From Bacteriovoracaceae bacterium (GTDB lineage Bacteria > Bdellovibrionota > UBA2428): DNA of 33,500 nt. A program made the position numbers and the translations under genes. Below are positions 819-4,334 of this stretch, piece after piece. The notes under the pieces were generated by a model. That model worked only from the letters and a program-made list of their open reading frames with translations. It made no database searches and was not told the origin of the DNA. The stretch lies in NCBI GenBank assembly GCA_947467125.1, contig CANIGN010000004.1:1-33500 (forward strand), read 5' to 3'. Positions within the stretch are counted from its first letter, which is position 1, and the number at the start of each line of letters is the position of its first letter.

Positions 819-2096
819 TTAATAATAATCAAAAGTGGGATCATCACCTTTGAGAAGACGATCGAGGTAATACGCGTTGAAGTTTTCTTGGTTCTCAAGT
901 TGATAAGTTTCGGAGCCCCAAAATAATTCAGCAGGATGAGTGCTTTCGGTAAGGTGGTCTCGGATTTGATCGTTGATGAGATCGTAAATGCGAACCAAAT
1001 TATTCATGTTCGCTTTTCTAAGTTCTTGCTTAAAATTGAGGTCTTGTTCAGACATCGCGGATTGAACTTTTTCTTTCAGCTTTTTAATGGCACTGAGTTT
1101 GTTGGCTGCTTGCGATCGCTCGCTTTCAATTTTAACAGAGATTCCTGTTTTGGGATCTGTTGCAATAACAGCTGTTTCTACTTTGTTGGCATTTTGGCCT
1201 CCGCTTCCAGAGGACTTTGCAAACTCTAGTTGAATTTCTTTTTCAGAAAAATGAACTTTCTCTAATGGGCGCTCGGGAACAACATTTACCCATACATCAG
1301 AATTGTATCGCGGATTGAACTTTTTCTCGTAGTGCATTTGAAAAACGTGCTTGCCACTTTCAGCTCTTAAGAGAATCCAAGCGCGTGGATCGTAGATGTG
1401 AAGACTGATTTTGCTAATCACACGAGATCCCTTGTTTGAGATTTTATCTTCAATGCTTTCGGAAACTCGAATTCCAAATTTTTTAACAAGTTCAATATAG
1501 TGGTCGGCCAGTTGGCGTATGGCGAGAGTGCTTTCGTTGCCGTTTCGTACGGTCAGTTCTACAAGTGTGGCTTCGGGGGCCTTATGTTGCAAAAAGTTAA
1601 TGAGCGATTTGTTGACGAGTACGAAGCTTTTTTGAATTTTGACTAATCGAGGGGCTGTTTCTTCTTCGGGATTGAGCCCTAAATCGAGAGCGGCTTCTCG
1701 GTCTTGCTCAAAGCCTTCTGTTTCTTTTTTAAGGGTTTCGTATTCGGCTATAAGCTCGCGAAGTTCTTTGACCTTGAAGGCAGACATGTCGCGGTCGCCA
1801 TAATAATGAGGGCCTTTTTCTAAAAGAAGTTCTTTGAGCTTTTCTTCGAGTTCGGAAGTTTTCTCTAAAAAGGCTTCTATTTCTTTAAGAGGACTGATTT
1901 TATTCATGACTCTTAAAGAAAAGAGACAGTTTTTGAGTGAAGAAGGGACTTTTTGAGATTCTTCAGGTTTTGCATTGACCGCGTTGAGGTAAAGTCCAAA
2001 GCCCATGACAAAAAGCATGGGTTTAAGCAAGTTCATGCCTTGCTTGCGTTGTAACTCTCTTTGTTGAAACATAAATGCGGACTTAAGAGATAGCAT
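819..2096 (-). CDS. Class-I peptide chain release factor-like protein with apparent N-terminal signal peptide
   Basis: SSGSGGQNANKVETAV...GISVKIESERSQAANKLSA = GGQ domain; RIYDLINDQIRDH matches the RF1/2 C-terminal region; N-terminal coiled-coil domain present. Internal Met at 2036 begins MNLLKPMLFVMGFGLYLNAVNA-KPEES, signal-peptide-like; true start may be 2036. Confidence 0.85.
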   Translation of the reverse strand: MLSLKSAFMFQQRELQRKQGMNLLKPMLFVMGFGLYLNAVNAKPEESQKVPSSLKNCLFSLRVMNKISPLKEIEAFLEKTSELEEKLKELLLEKGPHYYGDRDMSAFKVKELRELIAEYETLKKETEGFEQDREAALDLGLNPEEETAPRLVKIQKSFVLVNKSLINFLQHKAPEATLVELTVRNGNESTLAIRQLADHYIELVKKFGIRVSESIEDKISNKGSRVISKISLHIYDPRAWILLRAESGKHVFQMHYEKKFNPRYNSDVWVNVVPERPLEKVHFSEKEIQLEFAKSSGSGGQNANKVETAVIATDPKTGISVKIESERSQAANKLSAIKKLKEKVQSAMSEQDLNFKQELRKANMNNLVRIYDLINDQIRDHLTESTHPAELFWGSETYQLENQENFNAYYLDRLLKGDDPTFDYY

Positions 2097-2216: not shown

Positions 2217-4334
2217 ATGGCAATTGATAATTCATTACTTTTCACACGTAACTTTGGTATTTCTGCGCATATCGACTCAGGAAAAACAACTCTTTCTGAG
2301 CGTATCCTTTATTACACTGGAAAAATTCACAAGATCGAAGAAGTAAAAGGAAAATCCGGCGTTGGAGCAACCATGGACTCCATGGATTTGGAGCGTGAAA
2401 AAGGAATCACGATTCAATCAGCAGCGACTTACTGTGATTGGGGCGATTATCACATGAACTTGATCGATACCCCAGGACACGTCGACTTTACGGTCGAAGT
2501 AGAGCGCGCTCTTCGTGTATTGGACGGAGCGATTCTCGTTCTTTGTGCCGTTGCAGGTGTTCAATCTCAGTCAATTACAGTTGACCGTCAGATGAAACGT
2601 TACGGCGTTCCTCGTTTGGCGTTCATCAATAAAATGGACCGTGCTGGTGCGAATCCTTTCCGCGTTGTAGATATGCTTCGCGAAAAACTCAATCACAATG
2701 CACATTTGGTAACTTACCCTATTGGAGCAGAGGATAACTTCAAAGGTGTTGTGGATCTCTTGACTATGCAAGCGATTTATTTTGATGGTGATAACGGTGA
2801 AAATATTCGTCGTGAAGATTGCCCGGAAGATATCAAAGACAAGGCTGTTGATTATCGTAATAAATTGATCGAAGCGTTGGCAGATTTTGATGACGCTTTA
2901 GCTGAAAAATATTTGGATGGTAAAGAAATTACCCCTGCTGAATTAGTTCCAATCATTCGTAAAGCGACCATGTCTTTGAACTTTACTCCTGTTTTCTGTG
3001 GGACTGCTTTCAAAAACAAAGGCGTTCAGCATTTGTTGGATGGTATCTGTAGCTACTTGCCAAACCCAACTGAAAAAGTAAACAAAGCTCTCGACCAAAA
3101 TAACAACGAACAAGAGGTTATTCTGAGTTCTGAGACAGGAAAGCCGTTTGTTGGATTGGCGTTCAAACTTGAAGATGGTCGCTATGGTCAGTTGACTTAT
3201 ATGCGTATTTATCAAGGTAAAGTCACAAAGGGTGATTTTATTTTCAACATTAACCAAGGTAAGAAGAAAGTTAAGATTCCTCGTATTGTGCGCATGCATT
3301 CGAACGAAATGCATGACATTGATAGCGCAAGTGCGGGTGAAATCGTGGCTCTCTTCGGAGTTGAGTGTGCATCAGGTGAAACATTTACAGATGGCAACGT
3401 TTCTTACTCCATGACTTCTATGCATATTCCGAACACGGTTATTTCGCTTTCAATTAAGCCTAAGAATCGTGATGGTCTTGCAAACTTTTCAAAAGCTTTG
3501 GGTAAATTTACTCGAGAAGATCCTACTTTCCGTGTGTCACGTGACGAAGAATCAGGTGAAACTTTGATTGCGGGTATGGGTGAATTGCACCTTGAAATTT
3601 ACGTTGAACGTATGAAGCGTGAATTCGGTGTGGAAGTAGAAGTGGGTAATCCTCAGGTTGCTTATCGTGAAACGATTTCAAATGTGACTCCTTATGAATA
3701 TACACATAAGAAGCAAACAGGTGGTGCGGGACAATTCGCAAAAGTTTCAGGTCGCTTTGAGCCACTTCCTTCAGACGCGGTTAATCCTTATGAATTCGTG
3801 AGTGAAGTTGTGGGTGGATCTATCCCTCGTGAGTTTATTCCAGCAGTAGACAAAGGATTCCAAGAACAACTTTCAAAGGGATTGCTCATCGGAGCTCCTG
3901 TTGTAGGTGTTCGAGGTGTTGTGAGCGACGGTTCCTATCACGCGGTCGACTCTTCAGAGTTGGCTTTCCGCTTGGCAGCTATGGCAGCGGTTCGTGAGCA
4001 TTATCAAGCGTGTAAACCAGTTATTCTTGAACCCATCATGAAGGTGGAAGTTTCTGCTCCAGAAGAATTCCAAGGTTCAGTGATCGGTCAGTTAAACCAA
4101 CGTCGTGCGGTGATTATGGAATCAGGCACAAACGAAGGTTACTTTACGGCTATTTGTAACGTTCCTTTTGCGGAAATGTTCGGATATTCAACTGATTTGC
4201 GCTCAGCAACTCAGGGTAAAGGTGAGTTCTCGATGGAATTTGAGAAGTACGAAACGGCACCTCGCTCTGTGCAAGAAGAATTGATCAAAAAGTATCAAAA
4301 GAAACGTGCAGACGAATCTGCTGCTAGAAAATAA
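2217..4334 (+). CDS. fusA: Translation elongation factor G (mtEFG1/spdEFG1-like subtype)
   Basis: 705 aa; [91 protein letters not shown]. Confidence 0.97.

Follow-up and report, generated by a model that had tools for sequence, protein, structure and literature searches.

Class-I release factors (RFs) are regarded as strictly cytosolic and are expected to act only on the cell's own ribosomes. Here, we analyzed a gene for a divergent RF in a 33,500-nucleotide stretch (the window) of contig CANIGN010000004.1 from a Bacteriovoracaceae bacterium which, judged from its sequence, most likely belongs to an undescribed, patchy and fast-evolving family of Sec-exported class-I RF derivatives. The described systems to which it compares are RF1 (prfA) and RF2 (prfB), the RtcB-linked rescue factor PrfH (RFH), and ArfB/YaeJ together with the mitochondrial proteins ICT1 and C12orf65. 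PrfH is a cytosolic protein without domain 1, carries an SxY loop and is encoded next to rtcB (PMC1586002, PMC6514570). ArfB/YaeJ and ICT1/C12orf65 comprise about 140 amino acids, i.e., a GGQ domain followed by a basic tail, and hydrolyse independently of stop-codon reading. RF1, RF2, ArfB and PrfH are covered in a superfamily survey (PMC6514570), whose text does not mention signal peptides or secretion. An exported RF, or an RF with a signal peptide or a role in the periplasm or as a secreted effector, was not found in the open literature searched, Bdellovibrionota included, although this absence is no proof. For the RF1 of Bdellovibrio (Bd0069), regarded there as a normal translation factor, up-regulation has been reported (PMC2797640).

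The gene lies in an open reading frame (ORF) at 819..2096 of the minus strand, encoding 425 amino acids counted from the first ATG and 405 from the ATG at 2036 (MNLLKP); SGSGGQNANKVETAV is found in the encoded protein. The original prediction of a GGQ release-factor protein at this position was confirmed by the ORF and by its match to the RF-1 domain (4.7e-19), and RF-1 domain and GGQ motif together place the protein in the class-I RF superfamily (bacterial RF-PH). Since the same genome, a 1.17-Mb draft estimated to be 66% complete, also encodes a regular RF1, with a prmC-like gene (NPPY motif) behind it, and a regular RF2, the window gene is a third, very divergent RF paralogue. It shares the domain layout, the GGQ domain and the predicted fold with RF1 and RF2, but differs from them in having a signal peptide and in lacking the PxT or SPF motif and the internal cysteine, at 23-30% identity. 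All NCBIfam models scored far below their cut-offs, in the order RF1 (TIGR00019, 90.1 bits versus 423; no PxT), RF2 (TIGR00020, 79.5 versus 370; no SPF), PrfH (TIGR03072, 68.4 versus 167) and ArfB (NF006718, 40.5 versus 100, with the match limited to residues 279-310).

Like PrfH, the window protein derives from a class-I RF, has an altered loop for codon reading, retains the GGQ motif and is patchily distributed. Unlike PrfH, it has 405 amino acids including a domain-1 region, no SxY loop and a signal peptide, and no rtcB-like gene was found beside it. With ArfB/YaeJ and ICT1/C12orf65 it has in common that GGQ is kept while stop reading is apparently lost; in contrast to these short proteins, it keeps domains 1-2 and shows no match to the basic tail. 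RF1 and RF2 are the nearest solved structures by sequence, and an RF fold is also predicted by AlphaFold2 (22 aligned sequences; mean predicted local distance difference test score 72.8, predicted template modelling (TM) score 0.64, first 32 residues at low confidence). A Foldseek search of this model against the PDB returned ribosome-bound RF1 and RF2 from 2.6e-15, with target TM-scores of up to 0.75 covering domains 2-4, and PrfH at rank 39. The protein had been described as a full-length class-I RF and a translation factor. The domain layout and the GGQ homology bear this out; the stop-codon-reading motif, however, is lost, and since stop-codon reading itself looks lost, the term translation factor needs a qualifier.

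To score N-termini, we used a simple homemade scheme instead of SignalP, which combines an uncharged hydrophobic core of 11 residues, the charge of the n-region and the -3/-1 rule. The window protein reached 2.98, inside the range of six exported controls from the window (2.66-3.93). Thirteen cytosolic controls scored at most 1.82 and 55 canonical RFs at most 1.0, all usable starts considered. Hydrophobic stretches preceding the canonical RF1 of two loci (L007 and L009) disappear when real start codons are required. The predicted signal peptide has an n-h-c structure with a -3/-1 site, and thus the positive n-region, hydrophobic core and VNA site of the original prediction were recovered. Three candidate starts, 2096, 2036 and 1907 (MNKISP), were compared by codon log-odds trained on the other genes of the window, which gave 0.04 per codon for codons 1-20, 0.26 for codons 21-43 and 0.12 for codons 44-63, with 0.19-0.24 for the core. 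The start at 2036 is favoured because the codon usage of the signal segment equals that of the core, whereas codons 1-20 fall short of it. None of the three starts is preceded by a strong Shine-Dalgarno match.

To search for relatives, 369 genomes of the phylum (probably Bdellovibrionota), mostly draft metagenome-assembled genomes (MAGs) and some of them contaminated, were surveyed by protein search and by counts of RF-1 domains and of ArfB; genomes with unexplained extra copies were then opened. Domain counts set against ArfB were used because a profile built from the exported paralogues does not tell them from RF1. Divergent RF paralogues were picked without regard to their N-termini, and none of the features shared by them entered the selection. 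A divergent full-length RF was found in five genomes from four families, the window genome included; 5/369 is a lower bound, since domain counting may miss cases in incomplete genomes. By these counts carriage is uneven even inside genera (1/5 genomes in one, g117, and 1/2 in another, g134). Scans of genome and viral contigs with the window protein, and of viral contigs with the RF1 of its genome, returned no relative, and a genome-contig scan with the homologue from the groundwater MAG G055 matched only the homologue's own record. Phage and plasmid searches gave matches at 23-32% identity, the annotated ones being mostly RF1, RF2 or PrfH; among 80 viral-contig loci, no RF with a signal-like N-terminus was found.

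Signal peptides are present in all five divergent paralogues, with scores of 2.98-4.01, compared to none of the 55 canonical RFs above 1.0. This supports well, by computational means, the export that had been suggested for the window protein. A start at the MNKISP methionine, in contrast, appears unlikely from the sequence: the check for homologues beginning at this position failed, since their next methionine past the signal is found at residues 49-80 and its use would truncate or eliminate domain 1. Each mature protein contains a single cysteine, located 5-15 residues past the predicted cut, whereas only 4 of 26 other exported-looking ORFs have a cysteine within the first 20 residues. The internal cysteine of the VVxCQDERSQ segment, present in 50/55 canonical RFs, is missing from all five (p 5e-5). 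This pattern fits a protein that resides outside the reducing cytoplasm. A lipoprotein was considered for the conserved cysteine and rejected because no lipobox is present, the residue lying at +5 to +15 and not at +1.

These data bear on a cytosolic alternative, in which the protein would be a stop-independent ribosome-rescue factor that starts at a downstream methionine, its hydrophobic N-terminus being untranslated or misread. The stop-blind relatives PrfH and ArfB do perform rescue, no ArfB and no transfer-messenger RNA (tmRNA) above cut-off were found in the incomplete window genome, and three of the five drafts show neither clearly. However, codon usage marks the signal segment as coding, the signal is present and the internal cysteine absent in 5/5, and a later start, which in the homologues would cost part or all of domain 1, would cut into this domain. 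The alternative is further weakened because G259 has ArfB and tmRNA and G055 has tmRNA, and we regard it as improbable. A protein tethered by an uncleaved hydrophobic anchor, with its RF-like body at the inner membrane and most likely on the outer face, is quite unlikely as well: our scorer does not separate anchors from cleaved signals, and known signal anchors look alike, but small residues at -3/-1 throughout (VNA, AAA, AHA, AWA and ANA) and short cores suit cleavage. Finally, extreme divergence and the quality of the assemblies (G315 with 9% contamination) could reflect a scenario of a decaying duplicate, a mis-assembly or a chance signal-like start. Long intact ORFs with retained catalytic residues in five genomes, one of them in a 317-kb contig, speak against this, as does the frequency of chance starts (14 of 572 internal pseudo-starts scored 2.0 or higher), and such an artefact is very improbable.

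None of the five paralogues has retained a PxT or SPF stop-codon motif or the arginine of QRVP, and three of the five lack the GG described as contacting the first base of the stop codon (PMC1586002). GGQ, SQ/EQxxN and nearby catalytic positions are retained. Over the five paralogues, 86/105 invariants (82%) are kept in domain 3 versus 48/90 (53%) in the decoding part (p 2e-5). Together, the sequences indicate that the window protein is very probably both exported and stop-blind. Its function is less clear. The RF fold might have been reused in the periplasm or at the surface, e.g., for an RNA-binding, nucleotide-scavenging or structural protein. This idea draws on the same evidence for export and on the very fast sequence change, and ribosomes are not expected in the periplasm. 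Yet the retained residues, GGQ together with its flanking positions and the SQxxN stretch, are the ones that operate in the peptidyl transferase centre; structural reuse would need none of them, and we consider this idea rather unlikely.

In a phylogenetic tree, the five paralogues group with neither RF1 nor RF2, and their branches are very long. The pair L063 and L071 is fully supported, while the single origin of all five received a support of 62/64, and the tool flags long-branch joins. Either a single old, fast-evolving family or repeated recruitment could account for the five; the former is favoured because the cysteine and the signal are common to the members. Three observations weigh against the effector reading proposed below. 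Leave-one-out profiles scored held-out members below canonical RF1, and since the paralogues are thus no nearer to each other than to RF1, the five need not share one function. The window member retains just 13 of the 21 domain-3 positions conserved in canonical RFs, and because of these changes its activity could be reduced or lost. Around the exported-RF loci, neither a common set of neighbouring genes nor a secretion system or an immunity gene was seen.

Table 1 Features of the window gene and loci of the other family members.
Feature	Position or locus	Strand	Basis and remarks
Coding sequence of the putative exported RF paralogue, 405 amino acids	819..2036	-	Start by codon log-odds and homologues; in-frame upstream ATG at 2096 adds 20 residues
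Predicted signal peptide MNLLKPMLFVMGFGLYLNAVNA, predicted cleavage after VNA, before KPEES	1971..2036	-	Score 2.98
Sole cysteine, residue 37	1926..1928	-	+15 after the predicted cut; +5 to +8 in the other four members
Alternative downstream start MNKISP, judged unlikely	1905..1907	-	Homologues, codon log-odds, signal scores
PCRF-like region (domains 1-2), degenerate	1341..1775	-	PF03462, 22.2 bits, slightly below cut-off 24; AlphaFold2 model
Site of the stop-codon-reading loop, here HVFQMHYEKKFNPRYNSD, without PxT or SPF	1296..1349	-	Alignment with 54 canonical RFs
RF-1 (catalytic) domain	960..1256	-	PF00472, 4.7e-19, 68.9 bits, cut-off 35; 72.6 bits in genome search
GGQ motif	1194..1202	-	Read from sequence; invariant across all five family members
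G055 member	L062 = L070		JACPWY010000010.1, groundwater 'Deltaproteobacteria bacterium' MAG; the member in the 317-kb contig
G259 member	L063/L072
G315 member	L064/L073
G288 member	L071

The window gene is flanked by a converging O-methyltransferase gene and, across 120 bp, by a diverging gene for elongation factor G (EF-G). The latter (2217-4334) adjoins genes of outer-membrane type, away from rpsL, rpsG and tuf; no second EF-G was found in the assembly. In G315, the exported RF gene faces a converging gene for an exported-looking serpin (L073:1414-2604; PF00079, 3.5e-32). The exported RF gene of G288 lies beside one for an exported-looking protein of 896 amino acids (L071:519-3209, minus strand) with about a dozen repeats (W[ST].E.V..GL..L ... 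AL..AGLP), which by eye only resemble homing-endonuclease-associated repeats and have no Pfam match; this protein, too, has an early cysteine in its mature N-terminus (LESCEEVI). Additional RF-like proteins were observed. A sixth extra RF, from G066 (L061/L074), is RF2-like with 297 amino acids, keeps SPF and has a shortened N-terminus without a signal; this third RF of its genome is encoded on a contig of 6.2 kb, close to an FtsX-like gene. Short GGQ proteins (frames of 109-173 amino acids, e.g., G055:C52:70874-71161 and G315:C92:3395-3688) match PF00472 but go unrecognized by the ArfB model NF006718. Similar ones occur in families f2, f3, f4, f9 and f13, and they are possibly a separate short rescue-factor family of the phylum. 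Outside the phylum, a plasmid of Miltoncostaea oceani carries, next to a gene for ParB, one for a 'PCRF domain-containing protein' (L076:1348-2352).

For the exported, stop-blind protein, we tentatively propose the following course of action. It would cross the inner membrane unfolded via Sec, its signal would be cut after VNA and the mature protein would refold outside, acting where ribosomes other than the cell's own are met. There it could enter A sites without reading a codon and hydrolyse peptidyl-tRNA by means of GGQ, so that, as an effector, it would shut foreign ribosomes down or strip them. This complete chain, a Sec-exported, stop-codon-blind peptidyl-tRNA hydrolase at work outside its own cytoplasm, possibly as an effector against foreign ribosomes, is conceivable, albeit far from assured. 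That an RF has been turned into an exported weapon which empties ribosomes in the cells of prey, hosts or competitors is a somewhat doubtful but still serious possibility; patchy carriage within genera and very long branches are a pattern often seen in conflict genes. If the catalytic centre has indeed been kept, decoding dropped and export gained, peptidyl-tRNA hydrolysis would have moved outside the organism's own cytoplasm, and the family would represent a new mode of effector action or a striking reuse of the RF fold.
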